Assembly (NCBI GenBank): GCA_002919305.1
Contig: PKFB01000057.1
Span: 62,001-126,000, forward strand
From: Actinomycetales bacterium
GTDB lineage: Bacteria; Actinomycetota; Actinomycetes; Mycobacteriales; Micromonosporaceae
DNA: 64,000 bases
Direction: 5' to 3'
The stretch's first letter is position 1. Each line of letters starts with the position of its first letter. A program made the translations under genes and the position numbers. Under the pieces are notes generated by a model. That model saw only the letters and a list, made by a program, of their open reading frames with translations, did no database searches and was not told where the DNA came from. Positions 21,260 through 46,768 of this stretch are shown here, piece by piece.

Positions 21260-23482
21260 TTACCGGATCTGATGGCGTTCGGCGTACGCCTGCAACGCGG
21301 CCACCTGGACCGGGTCCAATGAGGGACGCACCCGACGCCGTGCCGCCTCGATATGGGCGAGGCCTACCTGCGTAGCCGTCAAAGACTCCCGCATCGCCGC
21401 CAGCGCGGCCTCCCGGATCAAGGCGGCGCAGTCGGCGGAGCTGAACCCTTCCAACTCGGCCGCCAACGCCGTCAGATCCACCTCCTCCGACAGCGGCACC
21501 CGACGCGCCGCCGCCCGCAGGATCTCGGCGCGTGCCGCCGCGTCAGGGGGTGGCACGAAGACCAGCCGCTCCAGCCGGCCTGGGCGCAGCAAGGCGGGGT
21601 CGATCAGATCAGGGCGGTTGGTGGCCCCCACCACGACCACGTCACGCAGCTGCTCCACCCCGTCCAACTCGGTCAGCAGGCTCGCCACCACCCGGTCGGT
21701 GGTGCCACCGTCGGTGGCCTGGCCCCGGCGCGGCGCCAGCGCATCCACCTCGTCCAGGAAAATCAGCGCGGGGGCCGCGTCGCGGGCCCGGCGGAACAAC
21801 TCCCGCACCGCCCGTTCACTCTCCCCGACCCATTTACTGAGCAGCTCGGCGCCTTTGACCGACAGCACGTTGGCCCGGCCCGAGCCGGCGACCGCCCTGA
21901 CCAGGTAGGTCTTGCCGCAGCCGGGTGGGCCGTACAGCAGAACGCCGCGGGGTGGCGCGATCCCGAGCCGCTCGAAGCTGTCCGGGTAGGTCAGCGGCCA
22001 CAGCACCGACTCCACCAGGACCTGCTTCACCTCGGCCATGTCGCCGACCTCGTCCAAGGTGATGGTGGAGACCTCCACGGTGGAGTCCGCCATCGAGGTG
22101 GGGCGTACCACCTCCAGAGCGGCCTCGAAGTCGGCGTGGGTGATCGTCGGATCGGTGTCGGGGGTATGCCCAGGACGGGGGCGTTGCCGCATCGCCGCTC
22201 GCACCCCCGCCTCCCGGACCAACGCCAGCAGATCAGCGGCGACGAACCCGGGGGTACGCCCCGTGATGTCATCCAGCCGGACGTCCTCGTCCAGACGGAC
22301 CCTCCGGGTGAGCACCGCCAGCAGGTCACGGCGCGCCGCGGTGTTGGGCAGGGGGATGGCGATCTGGTGTTCCAGTACGCCAGGTGCTCGCAGGCTGGCG
22401 TCGACCGCCTCTGGTCGGCTGGAGGTACAGATCACCGCGCATCCGTCGCGCAGCAGGTCACCGATGATCTGACGGAAAGCGGTCAACAAGGCGGCCCGTT
22501 CCGTCAGGCCGTCAACATCGGACACCAACAGCACCCCACGGGCGGCCTCCGACACCGACGCGGCGGCTTGCCGGAGTCGGGCCAGCGCATCATTGGCGGG
22601 CATCGCCACCAGCTCGGGCGTCCACAGCGACACCACCGTGGCGGATACTTCCCGGGCGACCGCGCGTACCAGGGTTGATTTTCCGGAACCGGCCGGTCCG
22701 GTGATCAGAATGCCCAGGGACATGCTGGTGCCCAGCCGTTCCAGCACCTCACGGTGGTGAAAACCCAGATCGAGCAGCTCGGTCAGCTGCTGGGCTTGAC
22801 TGCGCATCCCCGCCAGGTCATCCACCCCGACCGGCGGGTCGTCGTCCTGGCCCGACGCCTCCGGGTGCGCTGGAGGCGGGGTCGCACTGGAGTGGGTCGC
22901 CGCGCCATCCCGCCAGGCGACCACGGTGTCCATGGTGACGATGACCGGGTCCGGGGAGTCGGTTTCGGTGACCGTCAACAGCACGGTGGTCCATCCCATG
23001 CCCACCGTGTTGGACAAACTGCGACGCGCCCCCTCCACCAGGGCCCGCGCCGGACTGCCCAGCTCCATGTCGCGGGGCAACAGGGAAACGTTGTCCCCGG
23101 CGGTGACCACCTTGCCCAGAAGGGCCAGCCGGAGCATCTCGGCCGACACCACCGCGGTGACCTCCGGTGGACCGGCGACGATGACCCGACGGGCGGCCCG
23201 GGGCGGTATGGCGGCGATCGTCACCTGACCGCCGTCCCGGATGCCAAGGTTGCCCAACATCAGGTCATCGGCGTACAGCAACCCCCGCCCAGCACCCGGC
23301 TCGGCGCGGGCCACGATGCCCGCGGTGGTGCGTCGGCCGGTGAGTCGGACCGGGTCACCGGGGCGCAAGCCGAGCGCGGATATCACCTCCTCGTGTAACC
23401 GCACGATTCCCCGTCGGGCGTCCAAGGCGGCGGGACGCAGTGACGCAGTCAGGGTGAGGGTGTCCTCGCTCGGTTCGGTCAC
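21260..23482 (-). CDS. CDC48/p97-like tandem AAA+ ATPase
   Basis: A 740-residue unfoldase-type protein. An N-terminal CDC48-N double-psi-barrel (VRLHEEVISALGLRPGDPVRL, then ADDLMLGNLGI) is followed by two AAA modules. D1 has Walker A GPAGSGKST near residue 261, but its Walker B reads LLVSDVDGL instead of DEID, so hydrolysis is probably impaired. D2 has Walker A GPPGCGKTY near 516, Walker B LIFLDEVDAL near 574 and the second region of homology GATNRPDLIDPALLRPGRLE. The GTG at 23482 (VTEPSEDTLTL) with TACCCT seven bases upstream is chosen; an earlier start would overlap the divergent gene. Substrates are unknown in bacteria. Confidence 0.9.
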   Translation of the reverse strand: MTEPSEDTLTLTASLRPAALDARRGIVRLHEEVISALGLRPGDPVRLTGRRTTAGIVARAEPGAGRGLLYADDLMLGNLGIRDGGQVTIAAIPPRAARRVIVAGPPEVTAVVSAEMLRLALLGKVVTAGDNVSLLPRDMELGSPARALVEGARRSLSNTVGMGWTTVLLTVTETDSPDPVIVTMDTVVAWRDGAATHSSATPPPAHPEASGQDDDPPVGVDDLAGMRSQAQQLTELLDLGFHHREVLERLGTSMSLGILITGPAGSGKSTLVRAVAREVSATVVSLWTPELVAMPANDALARLRQAAASVSEAARGVLLVSDVDGLTERAALLTAFRQIIGDLLRDGCAVICTSSRPEAVDASLRAPGVLEHQIAIPLPNTAARRDLLAVLTRRVRLDEDVRLDDITGRTPGFVAADLLALVREAGVRAAMRQRPRPGHTPDTDPTITHADFEAALEVVRPTSMADSTVEVSTITLDEVGDMAEVKQVLVESVLWPLTYPDSFERLGIAPPRGVLLYGPPGCGKTYLVRAVAGSGRANVLSVKGAELLSKWVGESERAVRELFRRARDAAPALIFLDEVDALAPRRGQATDGGTTDRVVASLLTELDGVEQLRDVVVVGATNRPDLIDPALLRPGRLERLVFVPPPDAAARAEILRAAARRVPLSEEVDLTALAAELEGFSSADCAALIREAALAAMRESLTATQVGLAHIEAARRRVRPSLDPVQVAALQAYAERHQIR

Positions 23483-23515
23483 CTTCGTGAGGGTAGCCGC
23501 CCTACAGTTGCGGGC
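23483..23515. promoter_or_regulatory. 33-bp divergent, overlapping leaderless promoters
   Basis: Minus-strand TACCCT (23495-23490) lies seven bases before GTG 23482; plus-strand TACAGT (23503-23508) lies seven bases before ATG 23516. Each -35 position must fall inside the other promoter or gene start, so polymerase binding should be mutually exclusive. Confidence 0.55.
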
Positions 23516-26290
23516 ATGCGTCCGCTCCGACGGTTGAGCTTTCCGGTTCATCCGGTTCAACAGTTGGCTCGGAGTCGCCGCTGGTTGATCGGGCTCGTGG
23601 TGCTCAGCGTGCTGGCCGCCACTGTGATCGGGTTCGTCGGCGGCGATGGTGCCGGCTACCGGACCGAGGAACGGATGCTCAGGGTCAACGCCGCAGACCC
23701 CGTGGAGTTGGACACCACGCTGTATGTGCCCGGCACCGCCACACCGTCGAATCCGGCGCCGGCGGTGTTGCTGTCACACGGCTTCGGGGGCACCAAGGCC
23801 AGCGTGGCGGCCGCCGCCGAGGAGCTGGCCGAGCACGGTTACGTCGTTTTGACGTGGACGGCACGCGGCTTTGGACGCTCCGGAGGCCGCATTCACCTCA
23901 ACAGCCCCGAGCATGAGGTTGCCGACGCCGCAGACCTGCTGGATTGGGTGGCCAGCCGCCCGGAGGTGCTCTCCGACGGGCGGGGCGATCCGCGGGTTGG
24001 CGTGGTAGGCGCCTCGTACGGCGGAGCCTTGGCTTTGCTGCTGGCGGGGTACGACGACCGGGTCGACGCACTTGTGCCGCAGATGACCTGGCATGACCTG
24101 GCGGCTGTCTTCCTGCCGGAAGCCACCGGTGCCGGGCCCGCCAACGGCGTATTCAAGCGCGCCTGGGCCGGGGTCTTCTTTGGGGCGGTGACCGGGATCG
24201 GGGCGGAGCAGGGGCGGTTGGGCGGAGTGTCCGCTGACCCGGAGTGCGGGCGGTTCGCGGCCGAGATTTGCCGGGCGTACCAGGAGGTGGCGGCCACCGG
24301 GCGGGCGAGCGAGCAGGTGATCACACTGCTGCGTCAGCGCAGCCCGGTCAGCGTGGTAGACCGGATCACGGCGCCGACGCTGGTGGTGCAGGGAACGGCC
24401 GACACCCTGTTTCCCCTGTCAGAGGCGGACGCCATCGTACAGGGCCTGGCGCGGGCCGGTACGCCCGTGGCGGTGACATGGGCCTCCGGGGGTCATGACG
24501 GCGGAGAAGGGGCGGACACCGATACCGAGCGGATTCGGCGGCTCAGTCTGCGGTGGCTGGACCGCTATCTGTGGGGCGTCGACGATCAAGCAGAGGAAGC
24601 GCTCGCCGCCTTCACCTACAGCCGGGTGACCGGGTTCGACCTCAACGAGGGCGAGCTGACGACGGCGACATTCCAGGCCTCCGCGTACCCGGGTCTGGAT
24701 GGCGAGGGGACACCGCACCGGGTGACCGTTGAAGGAGAGCCGGTGCAGATCGCCAGCCCGCCAGGCGGCACTCCGGCCGCGCTCTCCTCCCTGCCCGGCG
24801 CCGGCCCCGAGGTGACCTCCGGGTTGGTCGTGGACATCCCCGGACAGTACGCCCGCTACCTGTCGGCTCCGCTGGAGACGGCGCTGGACGTGACCGGGGC
24901 GCCGACCGTCGACATCCGGGTGGCCTCCCCCACCGGGGAGGCGGTGTTGTTCGTGAAGCTCTATGACGTCGGTCCGGACGGTCGTTCAACACTCCCCAAC
25001 GGGCAGGTGGCGCCGGTGCGACTCACCGGACTGCCGTCTGAGATCACTGAGGCTGAACCGGTGACGGTCACGCTGCCGGCCCTGGCGTATCGGTTCGAGG
25101 CCGGGCACCGGCTCGGGGTGGTGATTGCCACCTCCGACCAGGCGTATGCCGGGCCGGATGACCCCAGGCTGTACACCGTGGCCCTCGGCGCCGGAGACGC
25201 CGCGGAGGTGACGTTGCCGCAGGTGCCCGCCACAGTCGTCGCGGGATCGGAGCGGGTGCTGTGGGCGGTGTTGGTGGGCTTGGTGGTGGCGCTCGCCGGC
25301 CTGGTGGGGGTGGCGTCCGGCGTGGCGCGGATCCGGCGGCGCCGGGTCAGCCGGGTCGGCTTCCCGGACTACCGTGAGGTCCCGCTCGTGGTACGCGGGC
25401 TGAGGAAGGTGTACACGGATGGCTTCGTCGCGGTCGACGACCTGACATTCACCGTCCAGCCAGGACGAGTGGTGGGGTTGTTGGGGCCCAACGGCGCGGG
25501 GAAGACCACCACCCTGCGCATGCTGTTGGGGCTGATCCGGCCCACCGCGGGGGAGATCCTGGTGTTCGGGCATCCGTTGACACCCGGGGCGCCGGTGTTG
25601 TCCAGGATCGGGGCACTGGTGGAAGGGCCAGGGTTCCTGCCACATCTGTCCGGTCTGGACAATCTGCGGTTGTATTGGCAAGCGACGGGACGGCCGATAT
25701 CGCAGGCTCGGCTGGATGAGGTGCTGCACATCGCCGGGTTAGGGGAGGCCGTGCACCGAAAGGTACGCACATACAGCCATGGGATGCGGCAGCGCCTCGC
25801 GATCGCGCAGGCGATGCTGGGCATGCCTCAGCTGCTGATTCTCGATGAGCCCACCGACGGGTTGGATCCGCCGCAGATCGCTCAGATGCGGCAGGTGCTG
25901 CGGCGGTACGCCACCGACGGGCGTGCGGTCCTGGTCTCCAGCCATCTGTTGGCGGAGGTGGAGCAGACCTGTACCGATGTCGTGGTGATGCACCGGGGCA
26001 CGCTGGTGGCGGCTGGGCCGGTGGCGGAGATCGTGGGTGACTCTCGAACCGTCCTGTTTGGAGTATCTGATGTAGAGGCCGCCGAACGGGTGCTGCGGGA
26101 GTTGCCGGGGGTCCGTCCCGTGGCCCGCGACGCCGGTGGGTTGATCGTGGACATCGATGGCGCATCCCGAGGGGAAGTGGTGGCCGCGCTGGTGACCTCC
26201 GGGATCGCGGTGGAGCGGGTGGTGCCTCGTCAACGACTGGAAGACGCGTTCTTGGCCTTGGTGGCCGACGGGGAGGAGAGGCGGCCATGA
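23516..26290 (+). CDS. S15/CocE-type hydrolase fused to ABC ATPase
   Basis: One continuous 924-residue frame. TM1 is at about 22-42, then an extracytoplasmic alpha/beta hydrolase (LSHGFGGTKAS oxyanion region, nucleophile S167 in VVGASYGGA, acid in QGTADTLFPLSEA, His in SGGHDGGE). A PepX-C-like jelly roll spans about 440-570 (VTGAPTVDIRVASP, then LALAYRFEAGHRLGVVI-like wording). TM2 is at about 580-605, followed by a cytosolic ABC domain: Walker A G657-PNGAGKTT, signature YSHGMRQRLAIAQ, Walker B LLILDEPTDGLD (E778) and H-loop VSSHLLAE. The 4-nt overlap with the permease gene implies one complex. A surface peptidase/acylase linked to an ABC-2 exporter is the inferred function. Confidence 0.85.
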   Translation: MRPLRRLSFPVHPVQQLARSRRWLIGLVVLSVLAATVIGFVGGDGAGYRTEERMLRVNAADPVELDTTLYVPGTATPSNPAPAVLLSHGFGGTKASVAAAAEELAEHGYVVLTWTARGFGRSGGRIHLNSPEHEVADAADLLDWVASRPEVLSDGRGDPRVGVVGASYGGALALLLAGYDDRVDALVPQMTWHDLAAVFLPEATGAGPANGVFKRAWAGVFFGAVTGIGAEQGRLGGVSADPECGRFAAEICRAYQEVAATGRASEQVITLLRQRSPVSVVDRITAPTLVVQGTADTLFPLSEADAIVQGLARAGTPVAVTWASGGHDGGEGADTDTERIRRLSLRWLDRYLWGVDDQAEEALAAFTYSRVTGFDLNEGELTTATFQASAYPGLDGEGTPHRVTVEGEPVQIASPPGGTPAALSSLPGAGPEVTSGLVVDIPGQYARYLSAPLETALDVTGAPTVDIRVASPTGEAVLFVKLYDVGPDGRSTLPNGQVAPVRLTGLPSEITEAEPVTVTLPALAYRFEAGHRLGVVIATSDQAYAGPDDPRLYTVALGAGDAAEVTLPQVPATVVAGSERVLWAVLVGLVVALAGLVGVASGVARIRRRRVSRVGFPDYREVPLVVRGLRKVYTDGFVAVDDLTFTVQPGRVVGLLGPNGAGKTTTLRMLLGLIRPTAGEILVFGHPLTPGAPVLSRIGALVEGPGFLPHLSGLDNLRLYWQATGRPISQARLDEVLHIAGLGEAVHRKVRTYSHGMRQRLAIAQAMLGMPQLLILDEPTDGLDPPQIAQMRQVLRRYATDGRAVLVSSHLLAEVEQTCTDVVVMHRGTLVAAGPVAEIVGDSRTVLFGVSDVEAAERVLRELPGVRPVARDAGGLIVDIDGASRGEVVAALVTSGIAVERVVPRQRLEDAFLALVADGEERRP

Positions 26291-27210
26291 TCGCTCCGAG
26301 CGACCGGTCAAATTCAGCGACCGATCAAAGGGCGGCGGGGATGGCGCCCAGATTTGGGGATGACGCCGCGCCCGGGTATCGGGCTGAGGCGACGCTGTCG
26401 ATCGGGCTTGAGATCCGGCGACAGCTCAGCCGTCGCCGGACCAAGCTCATGCTGGGATTGATGGTCGTTCTCCCGGTGGTCCTGTACCTGGCGTTCCAAT
26501 TTGGACCCGCTGATGAGGGAGAGAACGCCGATGAGGCGCTGCGTGGGCTGGTCGATCTCGCGACCAGCAGCGCGGCCAATTTCGCGGTTTTCACGTTGTT
26601 GATGTCGGCAAGCTTCCTGCTGGTCCTGGTGGTGGCGCTGTTCTGCGGCGACACCGTGGCGAGCGAGGCGAGTTGGGGAAGTCTGCGCTATCTTTTGGCG
26701 ATCCCGGTGCCGCGAGGACGACTACTGACGGTGAAGCTCACCGTTGGCCTGTTGTACTCGGCAGTAGCCCTCGTCCTGCTCACCGGGACCGCGCTGGTGG
26801 TGGGGGTACTCGCGTTCGGCTGGGAGCCGCTGCGGGCACCGGTCGGAGGTGAATCGCCGCCCGGTGAAGGATTGGTGCGGGTGATCGCCGCCGCAGGTTA
26901 CATCGCCGTGGCGTTGTTGCCGGTGGCGAGTGTGGCGTTTTTCTTGTCGGTATCCACCGACGCTCCTTTGGGGGCCGTCGGTGGCGCGATCCTTTTCCAG
27001 ATCGTCTCCGCCATCCTGGAGGCGATCACCGCATTGGGGAGTCTGCGGAGCCTCCTGCCCACCTACTACACCGACGCCTGGTTCGGTTTGTTGTCCGACC
27101 CGATACGGATCGAGGACATGCTGCGAGGTGGGATCAGTGCGTTGGTGTATTCGACGATCTTCCTCATGCTCGCGTGGTGGAGATTCCCGCGTAAGGATGT
27201 CGTCAGCTGA
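26287..27210 (+). CDS. ABC-2 type permease, partner of the fusion ATPase
   Basis: Integral membrane protein of 307 residues with about six hydrophobic segments: KLMLGLMVVLPVVLYLAF, FAVFTLLMSASFLLVLVV, LLTVKLTVGLLYSAVALVLL, VIAAAGYIAVALLPVASVAFFL, GAVGGAILFQIVSAIL and STIFLMLAWW. The extracytoplasmic loop after TM1 is acidic (ADEGENADEALRG). SLRYLLAIPVPRGRLL is the typical ABC-2 cytosolic segment. The start overlaps the upstream stop (ATGA), so the two proteins are co-translated. The first ~35 residues are polar and cytosolic. The transported substrate is unknown. It is convergent with gpgS, with a 15-bp gap. Confidence 0.86.
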   Translation: MIAPSDRSNSATDQRAAGMAPRFGDDAAPGYRAEATLSIGLEIRRQLSRRRTKLMLGLMVVLPVVLYLAFQFGPADEGENADEALRGLVDLATSSAANFAVFTLLMSASFLLVLVVALFCGDTVASEASWGSLRYLLAIPVPRGRLLTVKLTVGLLYSAVALVLLTGTALVVGVLAFGWEPLRAPVGGESPPGEGLVRVIAAAGYIAVALLPVASVAFFLSVSTDAPLGAVGGAILFQIVSAILEAITALGSLRSLLPTYYTDAWFGLLSDPIRIEDMLRGGISALVYSTIFLMLAWWRFPRKDVVS

Positions 27211-27225
27211 CTGTCTGGATGGGAT

Positions 27226-28182
27226 TCAGCCCTGCCGGGCCGCGCGGTATTCAGGGAGCGAGGCGATGGGAGGACGCTCCGGCAGCGACATCTGAGCATC
27301 GATCGGCACGATGACCTCGTTCTCCCGCCGGAACTGCGTGAGGGTGCAGCCCCGCTTACCGTGTGGGTCCACCCGCGCCATCACGGTGTGCAGGATGGTG
27401 GCCGCCATACGGCCAAGGGCCTGGGTGTCCTGATGCTCATGGCCTCGATTGCCCAGGTCGACTTGAGCCACCGCGTTCAACCCGCACCGGCTCACGGTGT
27501 CGATGAGCAGGCCGGTCTCCACGCCGTAGCCGGCCGCGAACGGCAAGGTTTCCAACAGTTCCCGCCGACCGGCGTACTCTCCGGCGAGTGGTTGGACCAC
27601 CCCGGCGAGTTCCGGGAAGAAGGTGTTGAGCAACGGACGAGCCATCAGTTCAGTGACTCGACCACCGCCCGCCGCGGCCGATACTTCACCGAGTGGACGG
27701 TCGTAGAACCCTTTGACCAACTGCACACTGGGGTCAGTAAGAAGCGGTCCCAACAGGCCAGTGACGTAACTGTCCTCAAAACTGGTCAGGTCTGCGTCCA
27801 CATAGACCACGAGGTCCCCGCGCGTGACCGCCAGGGATTTCCAGAGCACTTCGCCCTTCCCTGGCCGAGAGCCGTACTGCGGCAGCACGGTGTCGCGGTG
27901 ATAGACCGTGGCACCAGCGGCGGCGGCCACCGCGGCCGTATTGTCGGTGGATCCTGAGTCCATCACCACGACTTCATCCACTAGCCCGGTACGCTCGCCG
28001 AGCTCAATGACGCCTTTGACAATGTCGCCTACTGTGGCTTCCTCGTCGAGCGCCGGTAGAACAACGCTGACGGTGACATTGCCTTTGTGTTCACGCAGCA
28101 ACTCCTCGGGCCAATCTTCAGCTCGAGAGGTGCGCGTAGTGAACCATCGCTCTGCTCTGGTATCCACGTCGCAGACAATCAC
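27226..28182 (-). CDS. gpgS: Glucosyl-3-phosphoglycerate synthase
   Basis: GT81/GT2-fold glycosyltransferase joining glucose from a nucleotide sugar to 3-phosphoglycerate, the first step to glucosylglycerate and methylglucose lipopolysaccharides in actinobacteria. About 318 residues. Seen: VSVVLPALDEEATVGDIV, VVMDSGSTDNT, GKGEVLWKSL, the metal-binding VDADL, and the later LAGEYAGRRELLE and GYGVETGLLIDT substrate segments. The start is uncertain: GTG 28182 is used here, GTG 28227 extends it by 15 residues and GTG 28167 shortens it. The phosphatase gpgP is not recognisable nearby. Confidence 0.92.
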   Translation of the reverse strand: MIVCDVDTRAERWFTTRTSRAEDWPEELLREHKGNVTVSVVLPALDEEATVGDIVKGVIELGERTGLVDEVVVMDSGSTDNTAAVAAAAGATVYHRDTVLPQYGSRPGKGEVLWKSLAVTRGDLVVYVDADLTSFEDSYVTGLLGPLLTDPSVQLVKGFYDRPLGEVSAAAGGGRVTELMARPLLNTFFPELAGVVQPLAGEYAGRRELLETLPFAAGYGVETGLLIDTVSRCGLNAVAQVDLGNRGHEHQDTQALGRMAATILHTVMARVDPHGKRGCTLTQFRRENEVIVPIDAQMSLPERPPIASLPEYRAARQG

Positions 28183-28227
28183 ACCGGTTGATGGCCGACA
28201 AGTTACAAGGTCGTGATCTCGGCACAA

Positions 28228-40833: not shown

Positions 40834-42498
40834 TCACGCCGGATCGGTGGGCAAGGGCGGCCCAAGCACGTCGTCGGCGTCAGTGATGGTGTACGCGTAC
40901 CCCTGCTCCGCCAGGAACCGCTGCCGGTGCGCCGCGTATTCGGTGTCGATGGTGTCGCGTGACACCACCGTGTAGAAATGCGCCTGCCGGCCGTCGGCCT
41001 TGGGGCGGAGGATCCGTCCCAGCCGTTGCGCTTCCTCTTGACGGGAGCCGAAGGTCCCCGACACCTGAATGGCGACCGCCGCCTCCGGGAGATCGATGGA
41101 GAAGTTCCCCACCTTGCTGATGACCAGGGTGGAGAGTCGCCCGGACCGGAAAGCGTCGAGCAACCGTTCCCGTTCCCGGGTCGTGGTCGAGCCCTGGAGC
41201 ACCGGGACGTCCAGGTACTCGGCCAGCTCCGAGAGCTGCTCCAGGTAAGCGCCGATGATCAGGATCTGTTCCCCGGCGTGCCGCTCCACCAGCGCCTTGA
41301 CCACGGGCAATTTGGTACGCGCGGTCGCCGCCACCCGGTACCGGTCCTCGGGGTCCGTGGTGGCGTAAGCCAACCGTTCGGCGTCGGTGAGCGTGACCCG
41401 CACCTCAACACACTCGGCGGGGGCGATCCAGCCCTGCGCTTCGATGTCCTTCCAGGGGGCGTCGTAGCGCTTAGGGCCGATGAGGGAGAACACGTCGCCT
41501 TCCCGGCCGTCCTCGCGGACCAGGGTGGCGGTCAGCCCGAGCCGGCGGCGGGCCTGCAGATCCGCGGTGAAACGGAAGATCGGTGCGGGCAGTAGATGGA
41601 CCTCGTCGTAGATCACAAGGCCCCAGTCCCGGGCGCCGAATAGGTCCAGGTGGGGGTAGGTGCCCTTGCGGCGGGTAGTGAGGACCTGATAGGTCGCGAT
41701 CGTGACCGGACGAATCTCCTTGCGTTCGCCGGAGTATTCGCCGATCTCCTCCTCGGTGAGGCTGGTGCGGGCCAACAGCTCCCGTTTCCATTGCCGACCG
41801 GCGACCGTATTGGTGACCAGGATGAGCGTGGTTGCCTGAGCGCGAGCCATGGCCGCGGCGCCTACGAGCGTCTTTCCCGCGCCGCAGGGCAGGACAACCA
41901 CCCCGGAACCGCCGGCCCAGAAGGAGTCCACCGCCTGTCGCTGGTACGGGCGTAGGGCCCAGCCCTCCTCGACGAGGGCGATGGGGTGGGCCTCACCATC
42001 CACGTATCCCGCCAGGTCCTCGGCGGGCCAGCCGAGCTTGAGCAGCGCCTGCTTGAGGCGGCCACGTTCGCTGGGGAACACCACCACGGTGTCGTCGTCG
42101 ATGCGGGCGCCGAGCATGCCGGCGAGTTTCTTCGAGCGCGTCACCTCCACCAGGACCGCGCGGTCCAGGGCGCGCAGCACCAGGCCATGGGCGGGGTCGT
42201 TGACCAGTTGGAGTCGCCCGTAGCGGTCCATGGTTTCGGCGACGTCCATCAGCAACGCGTGCGGTACCGGGTACCGGCTGTACCTCAGCAGGGCGTCGAC
42301 CACGGACTCGGCGTCGTGTCCGGCGGCCCGGGCGTTCCACAGGCCTAGGGGAGTGATCCGGTAGGTGTGGACGTGTTCCGGGGCGCGTTCCAGCTCGGCG
42401 AACACCGCGATCGCCATGCGGCAGGCGTCGGCGTCGGGGTGATCGACTTCAAGGAGCAGCGTTTTGTCGGACTGAACAATGAGGGGGCCTTGCGCCAC
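40834..42498 (-). CDS. XPB/Ssl2-type DNA repair helicase
   Basis: Superfamily 2 helicase, 554 residues, bacterial homologue of the TFIIH/NER subunit XPB. The N-terminal ~130 residues form the Helicase_C_3-type module (PLIVQSDKTLLLEVDH, TYRITPLGLWNARAAGHDAE, YPVPHALLMDVAETMDRYG). The damage-recognition-like part precedes motif I GAGKTLVGAAA, motif II YDEVHLLP (DEVH), LTATLVREDGREGD (motif III with RED), and motifs V/VI KVGNFSIDLPEA and QRLGRILRPK. GTG 42498 has GGAGG at ideal spacing; a longer frame adds non-conserved residues. DNA unwinding in repair is the family role. Confidence 0.93.
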   Translation of the reverse strand: MAQGPLIVQSDKTLLLEVDHPDADACRMAIAVFAELERAPEHVHTYRITPLGLWNARAAGHDAESVVDALLRYSRYPVPHALLMDVAETMDRYGRLQLVNDPAHGLVLRALDRAVLVEVTRSKKLAGMLGARIDDDTVVVFPSERGRLKQALLKLGWPAEDLAGYVDGEAHPIALVEEGWALRPYQRQAVDSFWAGGSGVVVLPCGAGKTLVGAAAMARAQATTLILVTNTVAGRQWKRELLARTSLTEEEIGEYSGERKEIRPVTIATYQVLTTRRKGTYPHLDLFGARDWGLVIYDEVHLLPAPIFRFTADLQARRRLGLTATLVREDGREGDVFSLIGPKRYDAPWKDIEAQGWIAPAECVEVRVTLTDAERLAYATTDPEDRYRVAATARTKLPVVKALVERHAGEQILIIGAYLEQLSELAEYLDVPVLQGSTTTRERERLLDAFRSGRLSTLVISKVGNFSIDLPEAAVAIQVSGTFGSRQEEAQRLGRILRPKADGRQAHFYTVVSRDTIDTEYAAHRQRFLAEQGYAYTITDADDVLGPPLPTDPA

Positions 42499-42786
42499 GG
42501 AGCGCCTCCGGAAGTGATGAGGGGAACGCCGGGAATGTCGTTGAGACAGCCGGCTCCCAGTGTCCCTCTCTGAAGCCACCCACGCTTGCTGAGTGGTGCC
42601 TGTCACACGGAGGTCGGGGCGATCCGTGCCGCGGCCGGTCGCCCACAGACGGTGGTCATTGCGTGTGGTTGGCCCACTGGCGGCTGCCTGTCCAGATGCC
42701 TCACAAGGCCAACTCCACGCCAAACTCTGTCACGCTGCCTTGGCCTACGTGCTTGGCGCCGGCGCGGCTGTGGCCTGCCCGCCGGT

Positions 42787-42847
42787 AGGCATTGTTCAGC
42801 AGGCTAGGCATTGTTCAGCAGGCATTGTGTGGGTTCAGTAGGCATTG
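42787..42847 (+). repeat. Irregular tandem AGGCATTG/TTCAG repeat
   Basis: AGGCATTG starts at 42787, 42806, 42820 and 42840. The first two copies belong to a 19-bp exact unit (TAGGCATTGTTCAGCAGGC wording); TTCAG follows three of the copies. It looks like a young micro-duplication. Confidence 0.6.
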
Positions 42848-43029
42848 GGTGGCGCCTGTCGCCGTGGTGGATGCCCCGCGGTTTTGCCCTGAAGCTGGCG
42901 CTGGCACGAATCGGGGAGCATACCGGCGGCGCTTCCAGGCAGAGTTTTGGGCAGGGCAGCCTGGGGCATCCCAGCACTTGGGTAGCGACAAGGCTGGGAG
43001 CGTGTGGTCGGGGGACCACCTTCCGTTTT

Positions 43030-43099
43030 CGGCGTCGGGTACGCGTACTGGACGCAGCCGTCGCGGTGTCCGACGGGGGAGTGCGCGTACCCGACGCCG
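43030..43099 (-). terminator. 16-bp perfect inverted repeat, possible apbE terminator
   Basis: CGGCGTCGGGTACGCG (43030-43045) pairs perfectly with 43084-43099 across a 38-nt loop. On the minus strand it lies about 145 nt past the apbE stop. The loop is long for a simple terminator, so a protein-binding or RNA-regulatory role is possible. Confidence 0.45.
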
Positions 43100-43242
43100 T
43101 TCCACGTACACCCCAACCACAACCGGCCGTGAAAGGATCGTGAGTCCGCGGCCCACCCCGGTCGGCTCGGCAGATTCTTCGGCAGATTCTGGCGAGGTAC
43201 GCCCGGTAGCGGGATCCCAACAGACTTCAGAAGTGAGAGCGG

Positions 43243-44004
43243 TCAGGCGGCGGAGGAGATGTCCTGGCCACCCGGGTGCGGCTGAACGTACAGGACCGCC
43301 TCATAGCCGTCGGATGTGGGGAACCAGGACAGCCCAGCGGGGCCAGCGGCCCGCAGTGCGGTGGCATATCCGTCGGCCGTGGCGAGGTCCGGGCCCATCA
43401 CGGTGACGAGCCGGAAGTGGCTTTTGGGGCGCTGCGTGTAAGGGTCGATCACCTCGCTGGCTTCTGTGGCCAGACCAGTGTTGGTGATGTGCAGCGAGCT
43501 GAGGATCTCGGTGGGGTAATCGGGGTCGTGAATACAGACCCGCCAGCCGTCCCCGCCGGGGGCATTGCCGCGCAGCAGGAGCTTGCCGCGCGCCTCGATG
43601 GAGAAGTCGCTGATCCCCGCCTTCAGGAGGGTGGCGCCGGCCTGTTCCAGCGCCCAGCCCGTGAGCATTCCACTGGGGTCGAAACCACCGGGAAGCGCCC
43701 ACGGGTCGAAGTAGCCGTCGGTGGCGGCGCGCACCTCACGGCATCGGCTCATCACCGCGGCGGAGATCGCTGCGGCGTTGGTGTCGTTAAAAGGCCCTTG
43801 GCTGCGTCCCGTTGCCCACCCTAGGGCGGTGTCGATGCCACGCAGCTGACTGACCGCCATGGCCAGGGCGTGAGCGATGTCTTCTCGACTGAGGAAGGAG
43901 GGAGGGTTCAACCGGAAATGGGCGACTGAACCGGGCATTGCGGTGACATGTCGCACCGGTGTCCAGTCAATGGTGTAACGGATCCGTGCTTTGCCGGGCC
44001 GCAT
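43243..44004 (-). CDS. ApbE-family FAD:protein FMN transferase
   Basis: About 253 residues, the short actinobacterial ApbE type, which attaches FMN to threonines of target flavoproteins or traffics flavins. Seen: NDTNAAAISAAVMSRC, TDGYFDPWALPGGFDPSGMLTGWALEQAG (Asp/Gly flavin loop), GKLLLRGNAPGGDGWRVCIHDP, and the metal-binding ATADGYATALRAAG. ATG 44004 has AAAGGAG upstream and is preferred over a frame starting at 44133. No signal peptide is evident, so it may be cytosolic. No obvious flavoprotein target is adjacent. Confidence 0.85.
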   Translation of the reverse strand: MRPGKARIRYTIDWTPVRHVTAMPGSVAHFRLNPPSFLSREDIAHALAMAVSQLRGIDTALGWATGRSQGPFNDTNAAAISAAVMSRCREVRAATDGYFDPWALPGGFDPSGMLTGWALEQAGATLLKAGISDFSIEARGKLLLRGNAPGGDGWRVCIHDPDYPTEILSSLHITNTGLATEASEVIDPYTQRPKSHFRLVTVMGPDLATADGYATALRAAGPAGLSWFPTSDGYEAVLYVQPHPGGQDISSAA

Positions 44005-44268
44005 TGCGCCGGCTCCTTTCCATCCCCCGACCCAGTTGGCCTTTCCGGCCAGTCGTTCCTGGGGGACGGTTGGAGGCTGACCGCCCACCCAGGTACGACC
44101 GGCATTGGACCACTGTCGCACGGAGCGGCCCACTACCCCCCGGAAAGGTTCGCTCGGTTATTACTTTGAAGGATTGACCTGGGATGATCCTTGGCTTGAG
44201 CTGAGAGTTTCCTGGGAGCTAGTGTCCACAATGGATAGATCGCGGCGTGATGCCGCTCCGCGTACCCC

Positions 44269-46623
44269 TCACTCTGAGTCGGTGAGGAGAGTGGCCGAGG
44301 CGATCCGGTGCAGCGCGAAGGTGTGCATGGTCTCGCTTCGTTCGTCCTCAGCCCGCAGATAACCCGCCCCGATCGAGACGGGGCGCACGAGGCGGGTCGC
44401 CATCGCCCCGTGGGAGTCGACGTAACCCACCCAGACCCGCTGCCGCTCCCGCAGCGCTTTCTGCAGCACCGCCAGGGTCTGCCCCGGCGTTGCCTGATTG
44501 TCGAGGTTGGGGCGGGAAGCGCGGGCCGTGGCGTCGCCTTGGCGGATCAGCTCCACCACTGTGGACAGGCGAACCTCGTCAAGGGCCATGGAGGTGTCGG
44601 GCACCCGTGGGGGACGTGACCGGGCCGGTGCCCGACGGGCCTGCGGTTTAGTCAGAACCGTGGCTCCAGAAGCGTCCTCGGCGACCGGTGCGTACCCGGC
44701 GTCGCGTAGCGTGTCCAACAGCCTGTGCAACGCGTACGGGGTCACGACAACCGTCGGGGCGATGCGGCGCAGCTCCAGGTGAGACAGGCGCCGGTCGGCG
44801 ATGAGTTCGTCGAGCAGGGCCGTATCTTCGCTGCGGAGGTAACAACCGCAGTGGCCGGCCCGCAGCCCGCCGTGGCGTCGAGCCACATCGTCGATGAGAT
44901 AGGTCAGTGCCTGCGGTACCGGGGTTGCGGAGCGATGCGCCATCCTGGCGTGCAGATCCTCGGCGGTCACCCCGGCGTCCAAGGCGCGCCGGACGCTGTC
45001 GGCGGTGATGCGGTAGACGGTGGCGCCGCCGGCCGACTCCGGTTCGGCCATGAGGGCCAGTTCCGCGGCCAGGGACGGCTCCGGCGGTCCAGGGACCACC
45101 ACGGTCAGGTCGGCTTGCACCAGGATGTGATCGACCGGGGTGGGGAGCAAGGGCTCCAAAGCCCTGGCAGCCCGGTCCGTGATGACCGGTGTCTCCTCGT
45201 CGACGCGAATTCCGAGCGGGTCGAAAGCCGCGTCTTCATCCTGGGCCCGGAGTTCATCCTGGGCCAGGAGAGCTCGGCCATAGCAGGTGAGCGCCCCCAG
45301 ACCCGTCACCCCTAGCGTCGCGGCCTCTGACAGCACCTGATGAACCACCGTGTCCCGGTGCCGACCACCCCGCCGGGGTGCCCGCCAGGACAACATCTCC
45401 AGCACCGCTTGGGGGGCGCCCACCGCGCCCTCCGGCAGGAGCGCCAGCATCTGGAGCGTGCTTTGCCGCAGCTGGGACACACCACCCCGCTCCACGTCAT
45501 CAGAGAGCGCGTTGATCAGGCGGTCTCTGTCGTCCCGGGTGCCGATCAGGCCGGGTTGCCGATTCATGCCCAGCCATGCCCGGGCCAGGCGTACCCAGCG
45601 GACCGCCAGCGGCGCTTCCCGCCAAAGGTCATAGGCGGGCGTTGGAAGCCAAACCGGGTCGGCCTCCTGGCTGTCATCGAGCAGTTCGGCGGCGAAGGCG
45701 ATCTCCACAAGCAAGCCCGCTTCGGACTCCGAGATCCCTGTGGTACGCGCGATCCGGCGCAGATCCCGTATCCCCAACCCGGTGGAACGCAGCACCGCCG
45801 CCGGTTCGGTGGCCAGGGCGTCAAGGAGCGCGTCGGTGCGGCGTACCACCTCCATCGCCTGACCAGCACCTGCGGTGTTGACCGTGTCGGTGGGACGGAT
45901 GGGGACGTCAGGGGTAGGGGGCTCCGGATGTAGGTCACCCAACGGGCCGGTGTCGCGACGGAGCAGCAGCCCTACCTCCCGAGGCAGCTCCACGGTGTCG
46001 TCGGAGATCGGGATGAGCAGACGACGCGAGATCAACCACCGTACTGGACTGTCATCGTCCCCAGGGGCGGTGGGGCGTCGGGCGTTCCGGACGGTGCCCA
46101 CGGGTGGGCCGGCGGCGAGTCGATCGAGGATGGCACGGGCCGGCGCAGGGGCGGTCAGCACAGTGCGCCGCAACCGGGCCGGATCACCGGCGAGTTCGCC
46201 GGCTTGGGGATCCAGTTCGGCGGCGGGCCGGCCCAACCCCGCCGGGTACGCCGAGCAGACCTCGTCCACGGTGGGCAGGACGATCAGATTGGATTCCTCG
46301 CCGTGGACCACCGCCAGGGAGCGAAGGCGTTCCAGGGCAGCACGCACTGCGTCAGCCGATGCGGCGTCGGCGACCAGTCGTAATAGAGCAGCCTCGTTGA
46401 CAGGTTCCCCCAACTGGGGCAGCAGCCGTAGTGCGTCGAGGATCTCCAGAGTGAAGCGGTCGAGTCCGTCCAAAGCGCGCGCAACCGAAAACCGGGAGGC
46501 CGCGCGTTGCGCCAGGGTCGCGATATCCGTGGGAACCGGGACAGCGAGGTCGGGGCGGGCACGGAGCAGACTGATCAGACCGGAGTCGGGCAGGCGGCGG
46601 AGATGATCGGCGAGGCTGCTCAC
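44269..46623 (-). CDS. Helicase-associated (XPB-N-like) and WYL-domain protein
   Basis: A 784-residue cytosolic protein without helicase motifs. The N-terminal winged-helix-like region (SLADHLRRLPDSGLISLLRARPDL, FTLEILDALRLLPQLG) leads to a Helicase_C_3 module at about 490-620 (HILVQADLTVVVPGPPE, VYRITADSVRRALDAGVTAED, TPVPQALTYLIDDVARRHGG). A WYL ligand-sensing domain ends the protein (ALRERQRVWVGYVDSHG, RLVRPVSIGAGYLRAED, FALHRIASATLL). GTG 46623 lies seven bases after TAGCGT, a leaderless start. It probably acts with the nearby XPB helicase in DNA damage handling (inference). Confidence 0.85.
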   Translation of the reverse strand: MSSLADHLRRLPDSGLISLLRARPDLAVPVPTDIATLAQRAASRFSVARALDGLDRFTLEILDALRLLPQLGEPVNEAALLRLVADAASADAVRAALERLRSLAVVHGEESNLIVLPTVDEVCSAYPAGLGRPAAELDPQAGELAGDPARLRRTVLTAPAPARAILDRLAAGPPVGTVRNARRPTAPGDDDSPVRWLISRRLLIPISDDTVELPREVGLLLRRDTGPLGDLHPEPPTPDVPIRPTDTVNTAGAGQAMEVVRRTDALLDALATEPAAVLRSTGLGIRDLRRIARTTGISESEAGLLVEIAFAAELLDDSQEADPVWLPTPAYDLWREAPLAVRWVRLARAWLGMNRQPGLIGTRDDRDRLINALSDDVERGGVSQLRQSTLQMLALLPEGAVGAPQAVLEMLSWRAPRRGGRHRDTVVHQVLSEAATLGVTGLGALTCYGRALLAQDELRAQDEDAAFDPLGIRVDEETPVITDRAARALEPLLPTPVDHILVQADLTVVVPGPPEPSLAAELALMAEPESAGGATVYRITADSVRRALDAGVTAEDLHARMAHRSATPVPQALTYLIDDVARRHGGLRAGHCGCYLRSEDTALLDELIADRRLSHLELRRIAPTVVVTPYALHRLLDTLRDAGYAPVAEDASGATVLTKPQARRAPARSRPPRVPDTSMALDEVRLSTVVELIRQGDATARASRPNLDNQATPGQTLAVLQKALRERQRVWVGYVDSHGAMATRLVRPVSIGAGYLRAEDERSETMHTFALHRIASATLLTDSE

Positions 46624-46768
46624 CTCCTCAACGCTAGCGTGCTGCCGAGCTGCATTCAGTGTCCGCGTCAGGGACCTGGGGCATCGTGCGACACTGGGGG
46701 TGATCACCCTGCCCACCGCACCCTGGCGGTGGGTTCATAGTGGCTTCGGGCGCGAGGAGGAGACGAGC

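Follow-up and report, generated by a model that had tools for sequence, protein, structure and literature searches.

A pair of overlapping genes lies within a 64,000-nucleotide stretch of DNA from an Actinomycetales bacterium of the Micromonosporaceae (assembly GCA_002919305.1, contig PKFB01000057.1, positions 62,001 to 126,000 of the forward strand), referred to here as the window. The first gene encodes a fusion protein in which a hydrolase is joined through a transmembrane helix to an ATP-binding cassette (ABC) ATPase, and the second encodes an ABC-2-type permease. The idea that the two products form a single machine is well supported. The features of the pair are given below by window position; rows are those of an alignment of 111 fused proteins, and named loci are the best 80 of 576 by similarity, obtained by an alignment-query scan of genome contigs.

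23516..26290, plus strand: fusion gene (hydrolase, transmembrane helix, ABC ATPase), 924 aa; from the reading frame, its domains and 79 of 80 named relatives being fused
23585..23641, plus strand: first hydrophobic segment by hydropathy, residues 24-42, a signal peptide or a signal anchor
23696..24574, plus strand: alpha/beta-hydrolase core, residues 61-353
24014..24016, plus strand: Ser167, predicted catalytic nucleophile, in GASYGG (111 of 111 rows, 109 distinct)
24245..24271, plus strand: Cys244 and Cys252, predicted disulfide (each kept in 109 of the 111 rows, always at spacing 9)
24401..24403, plus strand: Asp296, predicted catalytic acid (111 of 111 rows, 109 distinct)
24494..24496, plus strand: His327, predicted catalytic base, in GGHDGG (111 of 111 rows, 109 distinct)
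24611..25231, plus strand: PepX_C-like jelly roll, residues 366-572
25256..25312, plus strand: second transmembrane helix (TM2), residues 581-599 by hydropathy, followed by an Arg-rich stretch
25376..26041, plus strand: ABC ATPase core, residues 621-842, with Walker A K663, signature YSHGM, E778 and H810
26042..26272, plus strand: ATPase C-terminal accessory part, residues 843-919 (short in 9 rows and long in the other 102)
26271..26280, plus strand: gggaggagag, ribosome-binding-site-like as read from the sequence, a few bases 5' of the permease start
26287..26290, plus strand: ATGA stop/start overlap of fusion and permease, from the sequence
26287..27210, plus strand: ABC-2 permease, 307 aa, six predicted helices; from the reading frame, domains and predicted structure

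The fusion occupies an ATG-started frame of 924 codons without internal stop in the list of open reading frames (23516-26290, plus strand), and the gene is single-copy in the 4.94 Mb genome. Pfam recognizes Peptidase_S15 at residues 61-315 (PF02129, score 87.6 against a cut-off of 23), PepX_C at 446-551 (PF08530, 57.9 against 22.5) and ABC_tran at 641-780. The frame and domains bear out the initial annotation, made from the sequence alone, which had described a hydrolase, jelly roll, membrane helix and ATPase in one polypeptide. The hydrolase also passes the NCBIfam CocE/NonD model TIGR00976 (105.5 bits against 66.3). Its closest solved structures are lipase/esterases, which lie nearer than X-Pro peptidases; S15 is therefore only a Pfam name for this part, and the peptide substrate first proposed is disfavored. 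The solved CocE/NonD hydrolases and lipase PaL (PDB 8yzn) are single enzymes of 505-614 residues, whereas in the fusion the chain continues into a membrane anchor followed by an ABC ATPase. Peptidase-containing ABC transporters (PCATs) likewise combine a hydrolytic enzyme and an ABC ATPase in one chain, but their C39 protease works on the cytosolic side, unlike the predicted outside hydrolase here; no C39 cysteine protease domain is found in the fusion by Pfam at E 0.001. Among the matches listed, literature searches for lipase PaL returned neither its organism nor its activity, and the PAL of PMC8971842 was rejected as a candidate, being a different enzyme.

By sequence and predicted structure the pair belongs with the ABC-2 transporters, the ATPase motifs being complete and the permease of the six-helix ABC-2 type. 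Five hydrophobic segments of the permease pass a hydropathy cut-off and the sixth (276-302) comes from the predicted structure; at E 0.001 Pfam assigns it solely ABC2_membrane_2 and ABC2_membrane_4, and no FtsX/MacB domain of the type VII permeases. The predicted structure is closest to NosY, tied in Z with ABCG2, at about 20% identity. NosDFY, like the pair, combines an ABC-2 permease and ATPase, of possibly related predicted folds, with an outside partner protein. NosD, however, is a separate protein whose fold differs from that of the hydrolase, and in the window the outside part is a hydrolase and the direct neighbors are genes for a CDC48-like protein and glucosyl-3-phosphoglycerate synthase (GpgS), with no nos context. 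All NCBIfam ABC models are under their cut-offs among the matches listed (25 of 196). The best likeness of the ATPase is to the DrrA kind, yet with 181.8 against the 312.45 required by TIGR01188. DrrAB/NatAB-type exporters share this ATPase sequence type and a six-helix permease; we know of none with an extracellular enzyme. The DrrA likeness speaks for a role in self-protection, on the whole improbable, in which toxic ester drugs or natural products would be expelled and then destroyed outside by the hydrolase, blocking re-entry.

The alignment comprises the window, 31 additional fused loci and all named loci but L141 (79 of 80), which is not fused and lies on a short contig. Two pairs of rows (L133/L050 and L162/L055) are the same places, leaving 109 distinct proteins, and other fused loci were left out as redundant. 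Residues S167, D296, H327, K663, E778 (the Walker B glutamate) and H810 are invariant throughout, which bears out the earlier assignment of S167 with acid and His motifs (here D296 and H327) and of E778. Because hydrolase identity falls to 33% in the most distant fused pair, this invariance does not reflect a lack of time. Judged from the alignment, conservation of these residues exceeds chance and both predicted catalytic parts are constrained. Of the 111 fused proteins, 109 have a hydrophobic segment at the N-terminus, preceded by a mean net charge of +4.4, and the flanks of TM2 carry mean charges of +0.3 before and +3.8 after, with R605 and R607 each found in 103 of 111 rows. The hydrophobic segments, the charge and the cysteine pair together are consistent with a topology in which the hydrolase would lie outside and the ATPase inside. 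In small genomes the N-terminus of the fusion, read by eye, resembles a signal peptide. The database copy P0001, of 901 aa, seems to have been annotated from a TTG farther along, at residue 24, which would drop the positive N-terminus and begin within the first hydrophobic segment.

The layout had been presented as a rarity, a view that does not hold. At least 120 of the nearest database proteins carry all three domains, and in the Micromonosporaceae 32 of 37 genomes (own genome included; 61 genomes of the order) match both hydrolase and ATPase at E < 1e-200; among the 32, the ATPase frame is broken in one genome, and a contig end truncates the match in another. The fusion occurs in Micromonospora, Streptomyces and relatives, and in Euzebya and Nitriliruptoraceae, which are deep members of the phylum. 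Within a plasmid collection (four of five matching records examined) Nonomuraea and Tsukamurella have the fusion, and Streptomyces and Haloterrigena a solo hydrolase. A class-wide scan with the hydrolase part alone matches 75 of 296 genomes at E 1e-60, and frame length marks some of these matches as solo hydrolases. Nearly all named loci (79 of 80) are fused in a single frame, the exception being L141 on a 4-kb contig. An artefact or misassembly joining two genes is thus refuted and has practically no remaining probability, since these relatives come from other assemblies; the in-frame stop or sequencing error named at the outset as a possible refutation is likewise absent. Among the entries listed, database names of relatives give one half of the protein, either "alpha/beta fold hydrolase" or "ABC-2 type transport system ATP-binding protein". 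Searches of the open-access literature found no characterized member with the fusion layout among the matches listed, in agreement with the initial annotation; the other refutation named there, homologues well characterized in a different role, likewise found no case among these matches.

Carriers include genomes of only 1.3-1.9 Mb. Genomes of this size are typically poor in biosynthetic clusters, and their possession of the module argues against self-protection, whereas the presence of antibiotic-producing genera such as Micromonospora and Streptomyces among the carriers argues for it. One small carrier is IMCC25003, a freshwater strain of the acI lineage with a genome of about 1.35 Mb (PMC5301498). 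In the family of this strain the module occurs in 17 of 101 genomes (13 of 67 of good quality). The idea that streamlined acI genomes always keep it was rejected on that count and on one genome that lacks it (G389). Among the listed rows of the class-wide scan, family f8 of the window's own order has 2 that match and 20 that do not; another 201 rows of the scan without a match lie outside that listing. Given this patchy spread the module is an accessory though old function.

The permease accompanies the fusion with great regularity. It adjoins the fusion in 79 of the 80 named loci. A first set of 32 loci, three of them also among the 80, has it directly downstream in every case (window and one contig-cut hydrolase included), as do all 20 longer loci, ten of which are shared with the earlier set; among 14 other loci it follows in 13, and the last is contig-cut. 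The offset between the genes in 78 named loci is -4 in 46 and -1 in 25, and the 4-nt overlap with a six-helix permease reported for the window is confirmed as the shared ATGA at 26287..26290. No third gene conserved beside the pair was found beyond local synteny, which in Micromonosporaceae and Geodermatophilaceae involves CDC48-like, DUF3263, threonine synthase, cold-shock and GroEL genes; in 21 Streptomycetaceae/Streptosporangiales loci solely antisense frames of the permease recur in more than five. The lack of biosynthetic or regulator neighbors conserved beyond that synteny is a further point against self-protection.

Solo relatives of both halves point to the history of the fusion. Two trees were built, each with 53 fused proteins: the ATPase tree adds 17 solo ATPases, and the hydrolase tree adds 13 solo hydrolases after three lacking a GxSY motif were dropped. 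In both, a single edge with support 1.0 parts fused from solo proteins. Immediately upstream of each of the nearest solo ATPases, at L177, L185 and L191, a secreted-looking protein is encoded, and a response regulator is found near the system in all three.

L177:1517-2602, L185:3101-4210 and L191:3195-4253: secreted RseB/LolA-like protein, with ABC ATPase and ABC-2 permease

The secreted proteins, of about 355-370 residues, are weakly like MucB/RseB, LolA or DUF2092 and are not hydrolases; the RseB/LolA fold binds lipid or lipoprotein. A profile built from the three finds no counterpart in the other solo or fused loci examined. Across the order, a wider search finds an RseB/LolA-like secreted protein in 73 of 101 genomes. 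Among 30 such loci fetched, 20 have an ATPase directly downstream, 19 of these 20 with a permease recognized by a fused-type profile; 17 of the 20 are new, L206-L208 being the same places as L177, L191 and L185. Fused and RseB/LolA-type ATPases group together with support 0.996, and 14 other solo ATPases fall outside that clade. The three-gene systems thus have the ATPases nearest to that of the fusion and a permease mostly recognized by that profile, but their outside partner is a separate secreted protein. Since they consist of secreted protein, ATPase and permease, the enzyme would take the outside place in the fusion.

Four solo hydrolases (L078, L087, L188 and L189) end in a C-terminal hydrophobic anchor, two of them with LPxTG-like motifs (LPATG, LPSTG), and proteins of this kind may be forerunners from which the fusion arose by way of the anchor helix. 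Related solo hydrolases, some C-terminally anchored, also speak for plain tethering, under which the hydrolase would scavenge lipids or esters near the membrane while the cargo of the transporter is unrelated. We regard this as the least probable of the functional alternatives, in that fusion and permease persist even in deep-branching members of the phylum and the catalytic residues of both parts are invariant.

The single machine of the initial annotation stands in that hydrolase and ATPase are one chain and the permease accompanies them; its peptide cargo is not supported. In the assembly considered here, two fusion chains and two permease chains would combine, and ATP would drive a lipidic or ester-bearing cargo to the outer face, probably as an exporter or floppase. 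The tethered lipase/esterase-like hydrolase would then cut this cargo, its presumed substrate, outside. A lipidic cargo is suggested by the fold relatives of the hydrolase and by the RseB/LolA-like sister partner. We give an even chance to this account of an ABC-2-type machine moving ester-bearing or lipophilic cargo outward for cleavage. The main rival, rather unlikely, is an ATP-gated surface enzyme, in which the ABC part transports nothing and ATP alters the conformation of the outside hydrolase or the access to it. ATP gating of an outside partner has been proposed for NosDFY and FtsEX. Bearing on this rival, the link from TM2 to the ATPase (residues 600-624; 25 in the window) spans 18-57 residues in relatives, which argues against a rigid lever and not against gating via the permease.

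Several observations, including this variable link, weigh against, or qualify, export and cleavage by one machine or the history proposed for it. Permeases of the six-helix ABC-2 kind also handle drugs or have roles other than transport, and simple co-inheritance would produce correlated distances as well. The named loci, as the best by similarity, are biased to fused members, and 29 further loci of the phylum comprise 18 fused proteins and 11 solo hydrolases. The fusion frame is broken within the ATPase part at G031:C1:4833554-4836210, in the same family as the window, and at L045 the permease match is split over two frames. In a single record, P0208, the permease too is part of the chain, which then has 1196 residues with hydrolase and ATPase; this could be a natural fusion or an indel. 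As to the sister systems, only one of the three secreted proteins exceeds a Pfam cut-off (24.0 against 22.3 bits), MucB is the best natural PDB match (E 0.056) but ranks after a designed protein (E 0.053), and 10 of the 30 fetched loci have no downstream ATPase within the stretch examined. When sister ATPases are added, support for the fused clade falls from 1.0 to 0.63, with 0.87 for the RseB/LolA-type clade.

Tentatively, and with a little less confidence than an even chance, the pair would represent a phylum-wide class in which motor and outside lipase-like enzyme form one chain, working by flip-and-cut or fired by ATP, and in which the enzyme would have replaced an RseB/LolA-like partner. 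If coupling is true, ATP use and ester hydrolysis on opposite sides of the membrane would be linked in one covalent chain, offering a simple system in which to study the action of ABC motors on outside enzymes. The sister three-gene system is a natural comparison for narrowing the cargo.

Several other loci and genes deserve mention. SCO3110-3111 of Streptomyces coelicolor was considered as a match and rejected; by published description it is another system, SCO3110 being called FtsX-like in one paper. Divergent from the fusion lies a gene for a CDC48-like double AAA ATPase (21260-23560, minus strand) whose listed TTG start overlaps the fusion start; comparison with a homologue suggests a start at GTG 23482, which would remove the overlap and leave 33 bases between the genes. 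Convergent with the permease is the GpgS gene (27226-28227, minus strand; NF010496, 427.5 bits), and among 20 fetched relatives 3 have a gene of this kind close to the pair. Farther along the window, at 40834-46716 on the minus strand, an XPB/Rad25-type helicase gene and a Helicase_C_3/WYL gene lie about 1.5 kb apart on the same strand.

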